A stretch of 9,353 nucleotides of DNA. Origin: Candidatus Firestoneibacteriota bacterium (GTDB lineage: Bacteria; JACRDZ01). Under the pieces are notes generated by a model. That model worked only from the letters and a program-made list of their open reading frames with translations, was not told the origin of the DNA and made no database searches. Location: contig JACRDZ010000116.1 of NCBI GenBank assembly GCA_016212735.1, positions 1 to 9,353 of the forward strand, read 5' to 3'. A program made the translations under genes and the position numbers. This document shows positions 856-9,353 of this stretch, one piece after another (within the stretch, counting starts at the first letter, position 1; each line of letters starts with the position of its first letter).

Positions 856-3591
856 ATGATAAAACTTGTTTTTATTTGTTCTCGAAAGGAAAATTTAGGG
901 ATCATAAACATTTTAAGTGAGTTAAAGGAAATACAAATATTTTGTTTTATAAAAGAAGAATGGTTAGATTATATTGAAACCCTGCCAAAATATAATAATA
1001 TAGTATACGATAAATCCCTTCAAAATATTAATAAAATTAAAGACCTATCAATTATACTAAGTGATGAAGCAAAGTATAAGCTGGATATTGAATTAGAAAA
1101 CGAAATCCCTTTTCTGAATGCTTTGAGTTTTAAATTCTTCCAGAATGTTCTTGAAGAAATGTATGACCGCGGAAAAGAGTTTAAAAACAATATTGAAGCA
1201 CAAAAAATAATTTCAGATCTTGGACTTAAGCTGACTTCATCAAAAACATTACAGGAGATTTCTGATAACATAGTCAGTTGCGCTCTAGGCTTAACCAAAA
1301 CTCCTGCTGGAAGTCTGGTACTTTATGATGATAAAGAAAATACGCTGAATTTATTAGCCACAAAAGGATTTAGCGAAGAATTTTCTAAAACAAAAACTTA
1401 TCATGTTCGAAAAGGTGGAATGACTGAATATATTCTTCAACAGAATAAACCAATAGTCATTAATGATTTATCCATGCAGCCGTCATTCAATAATCCCTTA
1501 ATGTTAAAGGAAAAAGTTAGCTCACTGATTGCTACTACATTAAAATGTGAAGGCAAAACAATAGGGATTCTTTATGTTGATGATTTTGTTGTAAGAGAAT
1601 ATATGCCGGAACAGATTGCATCTCTTTCTCTTTTAGCTATGGAAGCTGCATTTGGAATAGAAAAAATTCGTCTTCTTACACAGCTTGAAAATAAAAATAT
1701 AGAACTTAAAAAAACAACAGATTATATGAAAGCTATTCTTGATAATTCTGCTGATATGATTGTTACAACTGACTCTACAACAAAAATTGTGGAATTTAAT
1801 AAAGGCGGAGAACATATTCTTGGATATAAATATGAAGATGTTGTTGGCACAACTGCTGAAAGATTTTATCGCCATGCCAAAGAAAGACAAAAAATCATCG
1901 AAAAAATTCAAAAAGAAGGGGAAATTGCAAATTATGAAACAAAACTTCGGCATAAAGATGGACGATTGGTTGATATCAGTCTGAGCATCTCTCAGTTGAA
2001 AGATAAAAATGGGGAAGTAATAGGAACAGTTGGAATGAGCAAGGATATTACAAAACAGAAACATCTTGAAAAAAAACTGCGTGAGTCTAATAAAGAACTG
2101 GCCAAAAAAATAACGGAAGTCCAAAAAATAGATAAAATGAAATCTGATTTTTTATCTGTTGTTTCGCATGAACTTCGAACTCCTCTGACTTCAATTCTGG
2201 GTTTTGCCAAGATGATTCATAAGAAATTCGAGAGAGATATTGTCCCTAATCTAAACATGGAAGATTCTAAAATTTCTAACACTACAGGGAAGATTACAGA
2301 TAATCTTAAGATAATTACATCAGAAGGCGAAAGACTGGCAAGACTTATAAATAATGTTCTTGATCTGGCAAAAATCGAAGCAGGAAAACTTGAATGGAAA
2401 ATGGAACCGGTAAAAGTAGAGGATATTTGTCAGACAGCTATTTATGCTACCTCATCTCTGGCTGAAGAAAGGAAATTGGAATTAAAATTTATCCCTGAAC
2501 AGCATTTACCAATGATAAATGTAGATAAAGACAGATTAATACAGGTTGTTACAAATATTATAAGTAATGCCATTAAATTCACAAATAGCGGTTCAGTAAC
2601 CTGCACAGCTAAAAAAATAAAAGATCATATTGAGATTCGTATTCAAGATACAGGTATAGGGATTAAACCAGAACATATAAGTAAAGTTTTTGAAAAGTTC
2701 AAACAGGTTGGGGAAGGAGATACCATAAGTGACAGACCAAAAGGAACAGGGCTTGGATTAACTATATGTAAAGAGATTGTTGAAGCTCATGGAGGAAAAA
2801 TCTGGGTTGAAAGTGAATATGGGAAAGGCAGTACTTTTATATTTTATTTACCAGCCATAATGGAAGCATCAAATGTAGAAGAAAAACTGGAATATATCCC
2901 GCTTGCTAGAAATATATTTATTGATAGAATCAGCAATTCACAAAAAGTACATCTTATTCTGGTTTTTGATGACGAAGCGCACATCAGGTCTCTTCTTAGA
3001 CAACAGCTTGAAGATGAAGGATACAGAGTTATTGAAGCTGGTGATGGAAACGAAGCTATATTAAAAGCAAGAGAAGAAAAACCAGATTTGATCATTTGTG
3101 ATATATTAATGCCCGGACTCAGTGGTTTTGATATTTTAACTGTTTTAAAAACAAATAAAGAGACGTCCAATATACCTATACTTATTCATTCTGTTTTTGA
3201 AGATAAAGAAAAAGGGTTCAGGCTTGGAGCAGATGATTATATTACTAAATCAGTAAATGCAGCAGAGAAATTAATAAAATCTGTTTCAGAACTTCTATCC
3301 GGCAAAAAATCTGCGCATAAAAAAGTCCTTCTTATTGAAGAAAATAAATCAGTATCAAAATCTGTTCAGGAAGCTTTGATTTTAAAGGGGTATGAGGTAG
3401 TTTCAGCTTATACTGGCAAAGAAGGATTAGAAAAAGCTAAAATTGAAAATCCGGATTTGATTATAATAGATGATATTATCTCCAAATCAAATAATTATGA
3501 ACTTATCAAAACTCTTAAATATGTTAAAGGTTCTGAAAAATCAAGCATAATTGTTCTAACTCGTGACAAGCAAACAACGACATCTTCTTAA
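856..3591 (+). CDS. Soluble hybrid sensor histidine kinase, GAF-PAS-HisKA-HATPase-REC-truncated REC
   Basis: Seen (911 residues): an unassigned N-terminal region (1-110); GAF domain (about 120-285); PAS/PAC (about 290-405); coiled linker; HisKA with SHELRTPL, phospho-histidine H438; HATPase with N571, G1 DTGIGI (598-603), F box FEKF and G2 GTGLGL (630-635). Receiver 1 (about 697-815) has DDE 705-707, Asp749 acceptor, Ser779 and Lys798. Receiver 2 starts at 822, with a Glu828-Glu829 pair in place of the usual acidic Asp pair, candidate acceptor Asp872 and Thr902, then stops at 911 before the conserved Lys strand. There are no membrane segments. Known: such kinases autophosphorylate on His and pass phosphate to receiver Asp residues. 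The missing end of receiver 2 appears in the next, overlapping frame, so a frameshift is likely. The start is set by a strong AAGGAGG site. The ligand is unknown. Confidence 0.92.
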   Translation: MIKLVFICSRKENLGIINILSELKEIQIFCFIKEEWLDYIETLPKYNNIVYDKSLQNINKIKDLSIILSDEAKYKLDIELENEIPFLNALSFKFFQNVLEEMYDRGKEFKNNIEAQKIISDLGLKLTSSKTLQEISDNIVSCALGLTKTPAGSLVLYDDKENTLNLLATKGFSEEFSKTKTYHVRKGGMTEYILQQNKPIVINDLSMQPSFNNPLMLKEKVSSLIATTLKCEGKTIGILYVDDFVVREYMPEQIASLSLLAMEAAFGIEKIRLLTQLENKNIELKKTTDYMKAILDNSADMIVTTDSTTKIVEFNKGGEHILGYKYEDVVGTTAERFYRHAKERQKIIEKIQKEGEIANYETKLRHKDGRLVDISLSISQLKDKNGEVIGTVGMSKDITKQKHLEKKLRESNKELAKKITEVQKIDKMKSDFLSVVSHELRTPLTSILGFAKMIHKKFERDIVPNLNMEDSKISNTTGKITDNLKIITSEGERLARLINNVLDLAKIEAGKLEWKMEPVKVEDICQTAIYATSSLAEERKLELKFIPEQHLPMINVDKDRLIQVVTNIISNAIKFTNSGSVTCTAKKIKDHIEIRIQDTGIGIKPEHISKVFEKFKQVGEGDTISDRPKGTGLGLTICKEIVEAHGGKIWVESEYGKGSTFIFYLPAIMEASNVEEKLEYIPLARNIFIDRISNSQKVHLILVFDDEAHIRSLLRQQLEDEGYRVIEAGDGNEAILKAREEKPDLIICDILMPGLSGFDILTVLKTNKETSNIPILIHSVFEDKEKGFRLGADDYITKSVNAAEKLIKSVSELLSGKKSAHKKVLLIEENKSVSKSVQEALILKGYEVVSAYTGKEGLEKAKIENPDLIIIDDIISKSNNYELIKTLKYVKGSEKSSIIVLTRDKQTTTSS

Positions 3592-3613: not shown

Positions 3614-6600
3614 TTTGTTACAGAAAGTGTTTCTAACTTGATGGAAAATATTGAAATAAAAACAAATTGTAAATCAAAAGAAGATAAAAAGATAAATTTA
3701 TCACGATTACTCCATGATGAAATAGATAACATCTCCATGTTTTTAAAAAACATTTCAAACTTAACTTCATTTAATGAAGAATTATCCCTCTTTGATACTG
3801 AAAAACATCTTATAGCTTCTTCTCTTGATAAATCCACATATCAAATTGATTTAACAAAAGATTCAACTGTAAAATTTAATAATGATTGTTATGAAATTCC
3901 AAATGGTCTTATATTTAATTTATTTTTTGAAAAAGATCTTCTTGGCTATATATATTTTCAGAATGAAAAAACAGAAAAAGAGAAAATACTTATTTTGTTT
4001 CATCTGGTAAAAAATCTTTTAGATGAAATTGTAAGATTAAAAATTGAAAAAAAACAATTACTAAATGAAACTCTAAATAGCTATAGAGAAATAAATTTGT
4101 TATATAAATTCGGCGGCAATATAAGTTCTCAACTTGACCTTAATCATGTCTTAAAATCAGTAATAATCGAAAGTAAAAATATTATTAAAGCGGATACTTA
4201 TGCTATATATCTTGTGGATTTAAAAGACGGGAGTATGCAGTTAAAAGCTTCATTCGGCAATATATGTAATTCCACTGAACCGACTCATCCGGATAAAGTA
4301 CTTGCACATTTAATTGTTAAAACAGAAAGCAGTGAGATTGTTAATGATATAAAACAAAAACAAAAAATGAAACATTGTTCATGTAATATAAATTCATTGA
4401 TGGGTATTCCATTAAAAATCAAAGATGAACTTTTTGGAGTAATAATAATTACATCTCATAGTGAAAATCAATTTCATGCACGAGATGAAAAACTGGTTTT
4501 AAGTCTTGCTACTCAAGCAGCAATTGCTATAAAGAATGCATATCTTGAGAAAACAAACTGGGAAAACAAACGGCAATTAGCTCTTACAAAATTAATAAAT
4601 GAAGAAAAAGAAAAAGCATATAAAGACCTTGTTGGCAGATCATCACACATTATTAATATAAATGAAAAAATTCCAAAGGATCCAATCCCTTATATTATTA
4701 ATGGTGAATATGGAGTAGGAAAAAATCTTTTGGCACGTAAAGTTCATAAAGAAAGCAGAAGAAAAGATAGTCCATTCATAACAATTGACTGCGCAGAATT
4801 TTCATCAGGGGCACCTCCATCAAGGTCTATTTTTAGTATTAAAGACATATACGATACAAAAAAATCAGAAAAAGATTTTAGCTATCTGGAGCTTGCTCAA
4901 GGGGGGACACTTTTTCTTCAAAATATTGATAGACTTCCAAAAAATTTGTGTGAAAAACTTCTGGAAATTATTTCTCCTAAAGAAGAAAGCAGTGAATTGG
5001 TTCAAATGGAAAATTTTGATGTTAGAATTGTAGCCTCAAGTTCAACTTCTTTAGATAAAAAAGTAGAGAAAGGAGAATTTGATCCAAAACTCTATGAGAT
5101 ATTTAATAAATATAATATTACTATTCTGCCTCTCAGAGAGAGGAAAAAAGATATTACCATATTAATAGAATATTTCATAAAAAAATTCTCTGTATCCTTA
5201 GGGAAGGATATTAAAGGTATAGATAACAAGGGATATGAGAAACTTTTATCTTATAACTATCGTATTGGAAATGTCAAAGAATTAAAGGATGTTATTGAGA
5301 GAGCCTGTATTTTAACAGAATCGGAAATAATTACCAGTGAATATATTTTTCTTGATATGCCCACGTATGCAAGTAAATTCAGTTATAATTTGTTAAATAT
5401 TAAACCTTTCTATAATTTAATTAAAAAAGGTATTTTTCCAAGACCTTTGATTATAGTAAGTTCCATATTTGTATCTTTGATATTTTATTTTGCTTTTTTA
5501 TCCAGAACTGCATCTGGTATAAATCTGGGAACTGTTCTGGCATGGAGTGTCTGGTGGCCGCTTTTTACTTTATCTTTCTTTTTTGTAGCACGATTATGGT
5601 GCAGTATCTGCCCTATAAACGAAACTGGAATTAAATTAAGAAAAATTAAATTTTTTAATCTTAAAGTTCCTGCTTTTATACAGAATAATACTCATTACTT
5701 TGCCACATCTGGATTTTTAATGATAATATGGGCTGAAGAATATTTCAATATGCATTTATCCGGATTCAGAACCGGAATTATTTTAGGAATTATAGTTTTG
5801 CTTGCAACAATAACGAATATTCTTTTTCCCAAAAATACATGGTGCAGATATATTTGTCCTTTAGGCTATTTTGCAGGCACAATGTCTTTAACTTCTATTT
5901 TAGAATTACGTTCAAATCCTGATATTTGCGCAAATAAATGCAAAACTCATGATTGCTTTAAAGGAAATGATAAAATTGAAGGGTGTCCAATGCTTCTGCA
6001 TCTTCAATTTATTAAAAGCAATTTACTCTGTAAACTCTGCATGCGTTGTGTTCGTTTATGTCCGAATAATTCTCCTCAGCTTAATTTAAGGCTGCCTGGA
6101 TGGGATATTTCCGGAAATGAACATCTGGGGCAAAATATATCTTTGCTTGTAATTTGTTTGCTGAGTGCTCCTTTTGCAATTATAATATACAATTCTAAAA
6201 GCCTATTATCAAATCATTTATCGTTTAATCAAATATACTGGATATCACCATTTATAATAGGATTAGTAATATGGATGGTAAATTATATATTTTATTGGAA
6301 AGATAAAGAAAATAATTGGGAGCATTTTGTAGATGTATTGAATTTTTATATTCCGCTTGCTCTGGCAGTTAATATGGCTCTTCAGTTGAAATTTATCCCG
6401 GTTTTTTCAAAAATAAATATATCAGGTACTATATTAAAAAAAGCTATTCAAAGTAATTTATTTTCATTGTCGCTAATTAGTCTTTCACAGGTAGCACTTC
6501 TTATTGGGGGACTTATTTTCAGTGTTTTTCTTATGACAGTACATTTTTATACAATAAAACATAAAAACAAATTATTTTCATTCTATTATTATTTTAGTCA

Positions 6601-6655
6601 TCAGATTGTAATGTTTATTTATTGCCTTTTGTTATCAAAAAGTCTAATAAGTTAG
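3563..6655 (+). CDS. GAF - degenerate sigma54-type AAA+ - membrane 4Fe-4S polyferredoxin fusion
   Basis: Seen (1030 residues from a weak GTG): 1-30 resemble a receiver end (Lys17); 55-160 may be a degenerate GAF-like domain; GAF about 190-330; coiled linker; AAA+ about 360-600. The AAA+ keeps Walker A GEYGVGKN (381-388), LPLRERKKDI and GNVKELKDVIERA (569-581). It lacks the GAFTGA loop, has LFLQNID (450-456) where Walker B normally reads DE, and FDPKLYEIF (506-514) where arginine fingers are expected. No C-terminal HTH follows. Residues 629-1030 have about nine hydrophobic segments and cysteine motifs WCSICP (679-684), WCRYICP (760-766), C789/C793/C798/C808-P and CxxCxxCxxxCP (823-834), as in NapH/YccM/CcoG-type polyferredoxins. 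Inferred: two [4Fe-4S] clusters at the cytoplasmic membrane, with the AAA module acting as a scaffold rather than a sigma54 activator. The true start is uncertain, since this may be the 3' part of the preceding kinase gene. Confidence 0.85.
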   Translation: MTSKQRHLLNLSAFVAKFVTESVSNLMENIEIKTNCKSKEDKKINLSRLLHDEIDNISMFLKNISNLTSFNEELSLFDTEKHLIASSLDKSTYQIDLTKDSTVKFNNDCYEIPNGLIFNLFFEKDLLGYIYFQNEKTEKEKILILFHLVKNLLDEIVRLKIEKKQLLNETLNSYREINLLYKFGGNISSQLDLNHVLKSVIIESKNIIKADTYAIYLVDLKDGSMQLKASFGNICNSTEPTHPDKVLAHLIVKTESSEIVNDIKQKQKMKHCSCNINSLMGIPLKIKDELFGVIIITSHSENQFHARDEKLVLSLATQAAIAIKNAYLEKTNWENKRQLALTKLINEEKEKAYKDLVGRSSHIININEKIPKDPIPYIINGEYGVGKNLLARKVHKESRRKDSPFITIDCAEFSSGAPPSRSIFSIKDIYDTKKSEKDFSYLELAQGGTLFLQNIDRLPKNLCEKLLEIISPKEESSELVQMENFDVRIVASSSTSLDKKVEKGEFDPKLYEIFNKYNITILPLRERKKDITILIEYFIKKFSVSLGKDIKGIDNKGYEKLLSYNYRIGNVKELKDVIERACILTESEIITSEYIFLDMPTYASKFSYNLLNIKPFYNLIKKGIFPRPLIIVSSIFVSLIFYFAFLSRTASGINLGTVLAWSVWWPLFTLSFFFVARLWCSICPINETGIKLRKIKFFNLKVPAFIQNNTHYFATSGFLMIIWAEEYFNMHLSGFRTGIILGIIVLLATITNILFPKNTWCRYICPLGYFAGTMSLTSILELRSNPDICANKCKTHDCFKGNDKIEGCPMLLHLQFIKSNLLCKLCMRCVRLCPNNSPQLNLRLPGWDISGNEHLGQNISLLVICLLSAPFAIIIYNSKSLLSNHLSFNQIYWISPFIIGLVIWMVNYIFYWKDKENNWEHFVDVLNFYIPLALAVNMALQLKFIPVFSKINISGTILKKAIQSNLFSLSLISLSQVALLIGGLIFSVFLMTVHFYTIKHKNKLFSFYYYFSHQIVMFIYCLLLSKSLIS

Positions 6656-6689: not shown

Positions 6690-7079
6690 ATGGAAGCAAA
6701 TAAAAAAATATTAATTGTTGATGATGAGCCTTATATCAGGTCTCTCCTGGAAGAGGCGCTGGAAGATTTTATTGATAAAGGAGTTAACATTCTTATTGCA
6801 CCAAATGGAGAGATAGGATTAGAGCTTGCTTTGCAACATAAACCTAATTTAATTTTTCTTGATTGCATGATGCCTAAAATGAATGGGTATGATATGTGTG
6901 AAGCAATAAAGAAAACGCATAAACTGGATGATATTCATATTATTATGCTTACTGCAAAAGGACAGGAAATCGACAAACAAAAAGGATTGGAAGTTGGTGC
7001 AGATGAATATTTAACTAAACCTTTTGATCCGGACGAAGTAGTTAATAAAGCAGCAAAAATATTTGGAATTGTTTTTTAA
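6690..7079 (+). CDS. Single-domain CheY-like response regulator
   Basis: The 129-residue protein is one receiver domain with every key residue: acidic pair Asp11-Asp12 in ILIVDDEP, phosphoacceptor Asp58 in LIFLDCMMP, Thr88 in IIMLTA, and Lys110-Pro111 in YLTKPF. There is no output domain. It starts 34 nt after the polyferredoxin frame with AAAGGAG (6673-6679) ten nt before the ATG, so it is very likely in the same operon. Known: single-domain receivers act by binding protein partners or as phosphate shuttles. Inferred: it accepts phosphate from the upstream hybrid kinase, and its complete catalytic set contrasts with the degenerate receivers inside that kinase. Its stop codon overlaps that of the convergent barrel gene. 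Confidence 0.93.
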   Translation: MEANKKILIVDDEPYIRSLLEEALEDFIDKGVNILIAPNGEIGLELALQHKPNLIFLDCMMPKMNGYDMCEAIKKTHKLDDIHIIMLTAKGQEIDKQKGLEVGADEYLTKPFDPDEVVNKAAKIFGIVF

Positions 7080-8416
7080 AACACAACCCCGACATAAAGC
7101 CGAGTAGCTATTAAATTATTTGAAAATGTATATTCGCGGTCAGTTTTTCCAATATAGGAATACACATTAAATCCAAGGCTAAAGTCATTAATATCTTTAT
7201 AATTAACTCCTGTTGTAGCAATATAAGAACTATCATTAAGATTACTTATAAGGTTAAATGTTAAAATCATATCGCTTATTATAAATTTATTAAAACTTGT
7301 AAATAGAGCCGCATAGTATCTTGAAAGGTTATTAGCTTCATATAAATCATTATTTAATAAATAATCCTTTTTAGTCCCTGTTTTTTGTTTTCCTGTTGAA
7401 TCAAATTCACCAATGAATGTGTATATGTTTTTATCCTTAAAAATATTTTCCGTTAAACCGGTATGATTATAATAAAATTCCATATTTACTGAAATTCTGT
7501 CATTTACTTCCATAAAATCAAATTGTTTGCCGAAGTTCATGCTTGCTCTTGGTATCCATTTATCTTTTTCTTTATATTTTGATAATTCTCCATTTTCTGT
7601 TTTTATATGATTATAATTATCTCCATAGGAAAAAGCCGCTTCTCCTTTTGTATCAATTCCAAAAAATCTGCTGGAAAAATCGTATGAATATACCGGTGCA
7701 AATCCTTTTTTATTCCATCCAGAAAACGACATTTCTGTTTTCCCTAATATAAATTCATATTTCCCAGCGAAACCCAGCTCATTAGTATCAGTTGCATTTT
7801 TGGTATCAATAAAACCATAAATATTATATTTCGTACCATATGGTTTATGAAATTTAATTCCGTAAGTCCCTTCACGTAACCCTAACTTTTGAATAAAAGT
7901 CTTTTTTTCAACATTAATAACATCTGACGGATTCCACAAATAACATCTACCCCATTGGAGTACCTGTTTGCCTGTCCTGAAATAAACTGAATCTTTAATA
8001 TTAAAATCAATAAATGATTCCTTAATTGAAAATAAAAAATCTGAGTCTTTATTTTTAATTTGTGAATTATTCAATATTTCCAGATTAGCAAAATATTTTG
8101 TACCTTTTTTAAGCCGTACATCAAGAAAAAAATCAGCCAGAACAGAAGATGACAGAGAATTGTCTTTTTTATCCTTATCCCGTGAGAGGGTATAGTCCGA
8201 TGCTCCAATTATTTCACCTGAAAAATCAACTGTTTTTTTTTCTTCCTCTTCTTTTATTTTATTATCACTTGCAACTTTATCTTCGTTTTTATCTGTTGTG
8301 ATAATTAAATCAGGATTTGAAAAAAGATCATCTTCATTAATTGGGTCTTCAGCAAAAATATAAGAATTAAAGCATATAAAAATAAAAAATATAAAAACCA
8401 ATTTTTTCATTATCAT
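7076..8416 (-). CDS. Outer-membrane beta-barrel protein, DUF1302/porin-like
   Basis: Seen (446 residues): a signal peptide with KK at 4-5, a Phe/Ile-rich core and a likely cut after YIFA (residue 22); a polar, acidic and Lys-rich low-complexity spacer (about 23-62); then alternating beta-strand-like sequence to a C-terminal aromatic end, YVGVVF, typical of the outer-membrane insertion signal. The stretch RTGKQVLQWGRCYLWNPSD (147-165), followed by INVEKKTF and REGTYGIKF, is the best landmark and resembles the motif of DUF1302-like barrel proteins. Known: that family is poorly characterised and often sits beside export systems. The first ATG (8416) is chosen because AAAGGA (8429-8424) is 7 nt upstream; the ATG two codons later would be 13 nt away. 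It lies 16 nt downstream of the helical protein gene, so the two are probably co-transcribed. Substrate unknown. Confidence 0.85.
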   Translation of the reverse strand: MIMKKLVFIFFIFICFNSYIFAEDPINEDDLFSNPDLIITTDKNEDKVASDNKIKEEEEKKTVDFSGEIIGASDYTLSRDKDKKDNSLSSSVLADFFLDVRLKKGTKYFANLEILNNSQIKNKDSDFLFSIKESFIDFNIKDSVYFRTGKQVLQWGRCYLWNPSDVINVEKKTFIQKLGLREGTYGIKFHKPYGTKYNIYGFIDTKNATDTNELGFAGKYEFILGKTEMSFSGWNKKGFAPVYSYDFSSRFFGIDTKGEAAFSYGDNYNHIKTENGELSKYKEKDKWIPRASMNFGKQFDFMEVNDRISVNMEFYYNHTGLTENIFKDKNIYTFIGEFDSTGKQKTGTKKDYLLNNDLYEANNLSRYYAALFTSFNKFIISDMILTFNLISNLNDSSYIATTGVNYKDINDFSLGFNVYSYIGKTDREYTFSNNLIATRLYVGVVF

Positions 8417-8432
8417 AATCCAGTCCTTTATA

Positions 8433-9353
8433 TTATTTTTTAAACATCGTATTTATTAATATTTTTAAATTATCTTTTATCTTTGGTAAATCTTTAAATT
8501 TATCATCAATTTTTTTATCCAGAAGTGTTAATTCATCAATATTGCTTCTTTGAATAGCAATTGCCCAAACTTGTATAAAATTAGAGAAATATTTAATATC
8601 TGTATCCGTTGGTTGTTCATCAAAAAAATTTAAATACTTAAAAAAACTATATGTTAAAAATTCTAACCATTTAACTTTATCTTCTGGCAGTAATCCGCTT
8701 TTCCATAAAAAATCAATAAACTCAATAAAAACCTTAATAAAACTTTCTGGAATTGAACCTGGTAAAAATAACTGATTTATAAGATGTTGTGAACGCAATG
8801 TAATTTTCGCATTATCTTCCATAACTATTTGATACAAATTATAACCATTAAATGGCAAAAAAGTATAAAACCGCTCTGCAAGGTCGCCTAAAGAAGTAGA
8901 ATAAATTTTATCATCAATCCATTCTTTCGATAGGAAACTATTTAAAATAATTAAACTATTGCAGACTTTGATGTTTTCTTTTCGTTCAAAAAAATTCAAA
9001 GTATTCAAATCATCAATAATAAAAACAGCATCTTTATTTTTAGCAAGTTTTGCAGAATCTACAAGCCATTTATCCAGCATTTCATTAATATCTTTTTCAT
9101 TCAATTCAGCTTTTATTTCTTCTATAATTTGAATCCCTTTTGATTTTCTTAAAAAATTCCAGAGTCTTCTTAAATCTTCCTGTTCAAATCTCAATAGTTC
9201 ATTTTGTATTTTAATAAAAAGCTCTTCACTTATAAAAATATTTTTATTCAATTTCTCTAAATGACTTAGTAAGTTCATTTTGGCCAGATTAAGCAAAGAC
9301 GCATAATCAAAAACAAGATTACGTGCTTTTTCCAGATTATCTGTGAGTTTATT
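8433..9353 (-). CDS. Unrecognised helical protein, N-terminus beyond window
   Basis: Seen: 306 codons open to the right edge in this frame, so the gene starts outside the window. The TTG at 9296-9294 is only the first start-like codon inside it: 19 further in-frame sense codons precede it and no ribosome site is visible. The protein is rich in Leu, Phe, Ile, Lys and Asn and appears mostly helical, with no signal peptide or clear membrane segment in the visible part. A hydrophobic strand ending in two acidic residues (AVFIIDDLN, followed by a long helix-like stretch) superficially resembles a Walker B motif, but no Walker A is present. It is 16 nt upstream of the outer-membrane barrel gene, on the same strand, so it probably belongs to the same envelope-related operon. 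I do not recognise the family and assign no function. Confidence 0.8.
   Translation of the reverse strand, partial: NKLTDNLEKARNLVFDYASLLNLAKMNLLSHLEKLNKNIFISEELFIKIQNELLRFEQEDLRRLWNFLRKSKGIQIIEEIKAELNEKDINEMLDKWLVDSAKLAKNKDAVFIIDDLNTLNFFERKENIKVCNSLIILNSFLSKEWIDDKIYSTSLGDLAERFYTFLPFNGYNLYQIVMEDNAKITLRSQHLINQLFLPGSIPESFIKVFIEFIDFLWKSGLLPEDKVKWLEFLTYSFFKYLNFFDEQPTDTDIKYFSNFIQVWAIAIQRSNIDELTLLDKKIDDKFKDLPKIKDNLKILINTMFKK

Follow-up and report, generated by a model that had tools for sequence, protein, structure and literature searches.

A degenerate sigma54-type AAA+ domain fused to a membrane Fe-S module recurs in distant bacteria

Two groups of described proteins come closest to the one examined here. 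Enhancer-binding proteins of the sigma54 type (bEBPs) include NtrC1, NorR, NifA and PspF, and their relatives TyrR, DhaR and VpsR are sigma54-independent, soluble DNA-binding regulators. The second group consists of membrane Fe-S proteins. According to PMC5928378, both CxnCP motifs of NapH, NosR and RdhC are of the CX3CP form, NapH and NosR have two 4Fe-4S motifs, and quinol oxidation has been proposed for the membrane segments of NapH. The window, by which we mean the whole 9,353-nucleotide stretch analysed, from a Candidatus Firestoneibacteriota bacterium, encodes a protein in which features of both groups meet. This fusion was undescribed in the literature that we searched, a set poor in subscription papers. 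The relevant features of the window are as follows.

856..3591, + strand: hybrid histidine kinase (GAF-PAS-HisKA-HATPase plus two receiver stretches), directly 5' of the fusion gene
3563, + strand: alternative GTG start of the fusion gene, giving 1030 aa; the overlap with the kinase gene would then be 29 nt
3641..6655, + strand: fusion gene, 1004 aa with the ATG start at 3641
4142..4537, + strand: GAF domain of the fusion, residues 168-299 (Pfam GAF_3, 4.3e-10)
4625..5134, + strand: degenerate sigma54-type AAA+ alpha/beta domain, residues 329-498
4703..4726, + strand: Walker A, GEYGVGKN, with its Lys kept
4847..4867, + strand: position of the GAFTGA loop, which reads IYDTKKS
4904..4927, + strand: Walker B position, GTLFLQNI, with Gln427-Asn428 (4919-4924) in place of Asp-Glu
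5078..5104, + strand: arginine-finger region, FDPKLYEIF, without both Arg
5135..5347, + strand: AAA+ lid, residues 499-569 (PF25601), with GNxxEL present as GNVKEL and the sensor II Arg replaced by Lys
5387..6652, + strand: membrane Fe-S module, residues 583-1004, about nine long helices (model pLDDT 87.2, pTM 0.88)
5600..5614, + strand: first cysteine motif, CX2CP (Cys654, Cys657)
5843..5860, + strand: second cysteine motif, CX3CP (Cys735, Cys739)
5927..5989, + strand: putative 4Fe-4S motif, CX3CX4CX9CP (Cys763, 767, 772, 782)
6029..6064, + strand: putative 4Fe-4S motif, CX2CX2CX3CP (Cys797, 800, 803, 807)
6690..7079, + strand: single-domain receiver, 34 nt 3' of the fusion gene

A sequence-only reading of this DNA had described a catalytically dead sigma54-type AAA+ module joined to a membrane Fe-S module, and our analysis confirms that observation. 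The predicted fold of the AAA+ part is AAA+, of the NtrC type, and a non-AAA+ fold was rejected for this domain; the domain scan of the window protein returned no HTH match. Three further frames lie on the minus strand of the window. A 446-aa secreted-looking protein (7076-8416), whose frame shares 4 nt with the end of the receiver gene, has no Pfam match and is possibly an outer-membrane barrel; an open-ended frame (8433-9353) has a just-over-threshold match to a PIN domain of a TPR-GreABC system; and a Band 7/SPFH family membrane protein (1-705) is cut by the window edge.

Relatives were collected along two routes. A protein search started from the window protein and could thus favour similar AAA+ domains, whereas a genome scan seeded with membrane-module patterns only, and hence leaving the state of the AAA+ domain unselected, gave 44 loci. 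Among these, 43 have a readable AAA+ domain, and all 43 are without GAFTGA and without the Walker B Asp-Glu pair. In Pfam scans of the 44 loci plus the window, the lid and Fer4_5 were found in 45 of 45 proteins and Sigma54_activat in 44; no HTH appeared among the 25 of 32 families listed. Record titles of the scan loci include Desulfomonile, Thermincola, Peptococcaceae, Acidobacteria, Armatimonadota, Planctomycetota and Rokuibacteriota. The fusion architecture recurs in distant bacteria, cyanobacteria included; in the latter, database entries often name it as a gene activator. Fusions from a Chloroflexota genome (L036) and from Hebobacteria (L039, a MAG titled Hebobacterum) are near sisters in the tree and were counted as one lineage. 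Among 400 genomes of the phylum of genome G029, with at most two candidates scored per genome, the only full-length match was in the query's own genome; for these two reasons L036 may be mis-binned. Viral contigs gave nine pattern matches and no relative. A search with profile A3 was swamped by ordinary bEBPs: apart from the window and nine GAF-type relatives, the 120 matches listed are other proteins, and known fusions such as P0012 are absent from them.

The motif state of the AAA+ domain was read from an alignment of 91 fused relatives, namely 48 protein-search members including the window and the 43 readable scan loci; a filter at <90% identity leaves 85 of them. All counts for this set hold among the matches listed. 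Neither GAFTGA nor the Asp-Glu pair occurs in any of the 91. The Walker A residue is Lys in 72, Arg in 16, Thr in two and Gln in one, and the catalytic place holds Asn (47), Asp (15), Gly (14), Glu (6) or others (9); the Walker B Asp is present in three and never together with the catalytic Glu. Arg stands in the two finger columns in four and four members and at sensor II in 15. What has been retained is the scaffold: the LRER arginines are present in 87 and 88 members, and the lid GNxxEL residues N, E and L in 91 of 91 each. In the same alignment, 49 ordinary bEBPs (of 72 listed from the protein search) have GAFTGA in 42, Asp-Glu in 48, the fingers in 49 and 48, and sensor II in 49. The 11 GAF-type members (the window and P0002-P0011) agree throughout: Walker A has its Lys, the catalytic place is occupied by Asn, neither finger column holds Arg and sensor II is Lys. 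In a tree with the 49 bEBPs as references, 88 fused AAA+ domains group together as a single clade with support 0.998, a value that may gain from long branches. The decay of a single copy is thereby ruled out: the loss is family-wide, and the reading frame and the 12 cysteines are retained. The sequence-only reading is supported in that the catalytic and sigma54-contact residues are missing across homologues, and an intact-motif homologue of the same architecture was not found among the listed fused relatives or among the 119 members of the cyanobacterial clade described below. Nucleotide sensing in every member is ruled out, as 19 of the 91 lack the Walker A Lys. Because that Lys is confined to 72 of the 91, nucleotide binding cannot be universal; it is plausible in cyanobacteria and in the clade of the window.

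The membrane module is conserved. Among the matches listed, all 12 module cysteines, including the eight of the two putative 4Fe-4S motifs, are present in 91 of 92 members, and the remaining one, L042, is truncated by a stop. In all 92 the first motif has the form CX2C, and in 91 of them the second has the form CX3C. The window protein scores 31.8 bits against TIGR02163 (NapH/MauN ferredoxin-type protein), for which the cut-off is 213.05, and the module is not a member of the family modelled there. Pfam matches up to E 0.1 include no FMN-binding domain in the window protein. Among solved structures, a sequence search with the module gave nothing below E 0.47 and a fold search nothing convincing, and a structural family could still exist. 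By analogy, the module may work like NapH. Relatives of the module also occur alone, in 13 of the 400 genomes of G029's phylum. These stand-alone proteins of about 450-600 aa (L076-L086; L110:3962-5320) sit in genomes of that phylum and on a Deinococcus plasmid; of three neighbours scanned, one, beside L081, is YtkA-like and over the cut-off, one was below it and one was matchless.

The cyanobacterial members allow a closer look at what is conserved. Searching with P0048's membrane half as query gave at least 120 proteins, or 121 with P0047. Of these, 119 have a length of 680 aa or more; among the matches listed, all 119 share at least 73% identity with P0048 over that half. Names of cyanobacteria (Nostoc, Tolypothrix, Calothrix, Pseudanabaena, Leptolyngbya and others) stand on 28 of them, one is an Actinomycetota MAG, and members without a name were placed by similarity. 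Within this listed set, GAFTGA and the Asp-Glu pair are both found in 0 of 119, no Arg is listed for either finger column (Pro predominates in the first, with 92, and 114 members have a gap in the second), and the sensor II Arg never occurs. The catalytic place is Asn in 113, His in three, Gln in two, Ser in one and Glu in none; the Walker B Asp place is Asp in 54, Asn in 45, Ser in 10, Glu in seven and Thr in three. The P-loop residues Gly229, Gly231 and Lys232 are present in 119 of 119 and Thr233 in 118, and eleven of the 12 module cysteines are invariant, with the twelfth in 115. The P-loop is not singular in this respect, since 38 of 243 AAA+/lid positions, the P-loop included, are invariant among these close relatives. 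Some cyanobacterial members carry database names such as 'sigma 54-interacting transcriptional regulator' and 'nitrogen assimilation regulatory protein', and two fusions are named 'RNA polymerase subunit sigma-54'. A 104-aa frame on a Pseudanabaena plasmid (L109:6109-6423), also annotated as a sigma 54-interacting transcriptional regulator, looks like a remnant because its match is confined to P0048 residues 149-288, the linker and the first half of the AAA+ domain.

Surveys describe sigma54 as absent or rare in cyanobacteria. As reported in PMC3162934, sigma54 and its activators, the latter filtered by GAFTGA, are absent from 29 cyanobacteria; a 2025 survey (PMC12316311) describes rpoN as rare in the phyla concerned, with two cyanobacterial exceptions. 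A role of the fusion as a sigma54 activator is therefore very unlikely, and the proposal of a repurposing away from sigma54 gains weight from the occurrence of the fusion where sigma54 is absent or rare. Because two fusions bear the name of the sigma factor, we suspect that the two exceptions may be mislabelled family members. The 44 scan loci lie in 37 genomes, 32 of which match the sigma54 DNA-binding domain; the core-binding domain was matched in two of eight genomes searched. Three genomes (G029, G031 and G032) have no match to either domain. Their best PF00158 match is the fusion; one weaker match each in G031 and G032 resembles ClpC by eye, and the remaining matches (one, one and two) are below listing strength. 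Such weak matches mean little, since all 14 control genomes have PF00158 matches; in one control, Synechococcus elongatus, neither sigma54 domain was matched. Two other genomes, G025 and G028, have no sigma54 match and are likely incomplete, because they have 24 and 23 PF00158 matches. Sigma54-controlled expression of the fusions was considered and rejected: -24/-12 sites were found in three of 42 upstream regions (40 loci and the two window starts), against 2.7 expected from mononucleotide shuffles.

The domains N-terminal of the AAA+ part are diverse. In the 45 proteins scanned with Pfam they are cNMP (36), receiver (2), HisKA (2), PAS (1) and GAF (1); P0038 combines cNMP and GAF. cAMP-binding domains carry a phosphate-contacting Arg motif. 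Since a pattern match to this motif finds the Arg in only some cNMP members, for instance P0042-P0046, the cNMP domain may not bind cAMP. Signalling genes were found in the fetched stretch of 18 of 45 loci and in none of the other 27, a raw count without a baseline; the neighbour search relied on eight query domains and on simple ORF calling, by which genes were misplaced in some GC-rich loci (L007 and L008, for example), and several loci have little flank. In nine loci the order is kinase, intact bEBP, fusion, and the bEBP directly 5' of the fusion has GAFTGA or GSFTGA, Asp-Glu and the arginine fingers. SpoIIE-RsbW-STAS follows the fusion in L016, and a receiver gene overlaps the L044 fusion by 4 nt. 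The sequence-only reading had also suggested a link between phosphorelay and membrane redox chemistry; this part of the claim agrees with the window and 11 other close gene arrangements and not with most loci. The overall interpretation, a fair inference, is partly supported.

What might a dead AAA+ domain do for a membrane redox protein? We propose that the fusion derives from a sigma54 activator and now works as a membrane electron-transfer protein under the control of signals, a reading to which we give an even chance. As judged from the alignments and the predicted structure, a sensor is followed by an AAA+ fold stripped of the ATPase and sigma54-contact residues and by a 12-Cys membrane module that replaces the DNA-binding domain. 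The N-terminal domain would determine, as in bEBPs, which conformation or oligomeric state the AAA+ part adopts; the AAA+ part would no longer turn over ATP and would serve as a switch or scaffold, nucleotide-loaded where the P-loop is retained; and the output would be the activity of the attached NapH-like redox module, not transcription. For the window protein the input might come from a ligand of the GAF domain, from the hybrid kinase and receivers encoded next to it, or from both. Nucleotide binding without turnover, the switch role and the control of electron transfer are thus the interpretive steps of this model. Several observations weigh against it: the loss of the Walker A Lys in 19 of the 91 listed fused relatives, together with Glu at the catalytic place in six and the Walker B Asp in three; the Asp kept in 54 of the 119 listed clade members; the membrane module scoring far below the NapH cut-off without a convincing fold relative; the close relationship of the 119, among which the P-loop is not singular; and the lack of a detected signalling gene in the fetched stretch of 27 of 45 loci. 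If the model is right, the AAA+ domain of an enhancer-binding protein ceased to drive transcription and came to control a membrane redox module without hydrolysing ATP, a change that apparently happened once and then spread widely, and the database labels of some cyanobacterial members as sigma54 regulators need correcting. It also raises a testable question, namely whether an AAA+ pseudo-ATPase gates a redox protein. A bolder version, which we hold only tentatively and would not expect to prevail, is a widespread and so far undescribed class of energy-charge-gated redox valves: an AAA+ ring in which ATP is bound and not burnt, and in which occupancy and a swappable sensor gate the flow of electrons through the Fe-S module. 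If true, this would link the ATP level to quinone-pool or sulfur redox chemistry in cyanobacteria, and many cyanobacterial genes labelled as sigma54 regulators would be such valves.

The flow of information could also run from the membrane to the cytoplasm. The module would then act as a sensor of quinone or electron flux, and its signal would be relayed by the dead AAA+ domain to a kinase, a receiver or an RsbW-type switch. Same-strand kinase, receiver or SpoIIE-RsbW-STAS genes adjoin the fusion in the window and 11 other loci, and NosR/NirI-type proteins were initially taken for transcriptional regulators (PMC5928378). However, many loci have no such neighbour, and in two members (L008 and L044) the AAA+ domain is immediately preceded by a receiver within the same protein, which is the bEBP input position. 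By analogy with bEBPs, the order of sensor, AAA+ and output, in which the redox module stands where the DNA-binding domain would be, speaks, though not decisively, for a module that is controlled rather than one that senses; we consider a sensory module possible but doubtful.

A third reading regards the fusion as a redox enzyme with a housekeeping task, such as the handling of sulfide, cysteine or metals, and the AAA+ domain as no more than a folded remnant that keeps the module together. It draws on two cyanobacterial plasmids, from Aulosira and Pseudanabaena, which belong to different orders: on both, the fusion is followed by a cysteine synthase gene, 17 and 5 nt away, and petC, psbA and YgaP-like genes lie near. 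The stand-alone modules of G029's phylum point the same way. An inert remnant would be unlikely to retain the P-loop Lys in all 119 listed clade members or the lid motif in all 91 listed fused relatives, and we deem the reading improbable. The plasmid regions (L107:8926-12617 and L107:12906-13337; L108:9001-12638), with an Rrf2-type regulator in L107 and rhodanese and DsrE genes in L108, look like a sulfur or photosynthetic-stress cluster. In L019 a cysteine synthase gene lies 1.7 kb off on the opposite strand, and the window has none.

Could the dead domain instead join intact bEBP hexamers and poison them, tethering sigma54 control to the membrane? The intact bEBP directly 5' of the fusion in nine loci invites the idea. 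Against it stand the cyanobacterial members, the three genomes without a sigma54 match whose best PF00158 match is the fusion itself, and the lack of sigma54 promoter enrichment upstream of the fusions; we judge it quite improbable. An active sigma54-dependent activator, as the database names would have it, is strongly disfavoured, and almost certainly wrong, given a contact loop and Asp-Glu pair missing from every listed fused relative and clade member, the lack of an HTH match in the window protein and the survey of 29 cyanobacteria.

The signal-regulated electron-transfer protein that we prefer amalgamates elements of the known systems. With the bEBPs NtrC1, NorR, NifA and PspF the fusion has in common the AAA+ fold, the lid, the sensor-then-AAA+ order and the Walker A, LRER and GNxxEL motifs; unlike them, it is without GAFTGA, the Walker B Asp-Glu, the arginine fingers and the HTH, and has a membrane Fe-S module instead. 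With NapH, NosR and RdhC (PMC5928378) it shares a multi-helix membrane module with paired CxnCP motifs, and with NapH and NosR two 4Fe-4S motifs, putative in the fusion. It differs from all three in its first motif, CX2CP in every listed member rather than CX3CP, and in five more long helices that the model places past the Fe-S motifs, and from NosR and RdhC in lacking a match to the FMN-binding domain. Two CRP-like cNMP-AAA-HTH bEBPs (P0122 and P0135) have, like many fusions, a cNMP domain before the sigma54 AAA+ domain, but they possess GAFTGA and Asp-Glu, end in an HTH and have no membrane module. An ordinary bEBP of this type is a plausible ancestor of the fusion.
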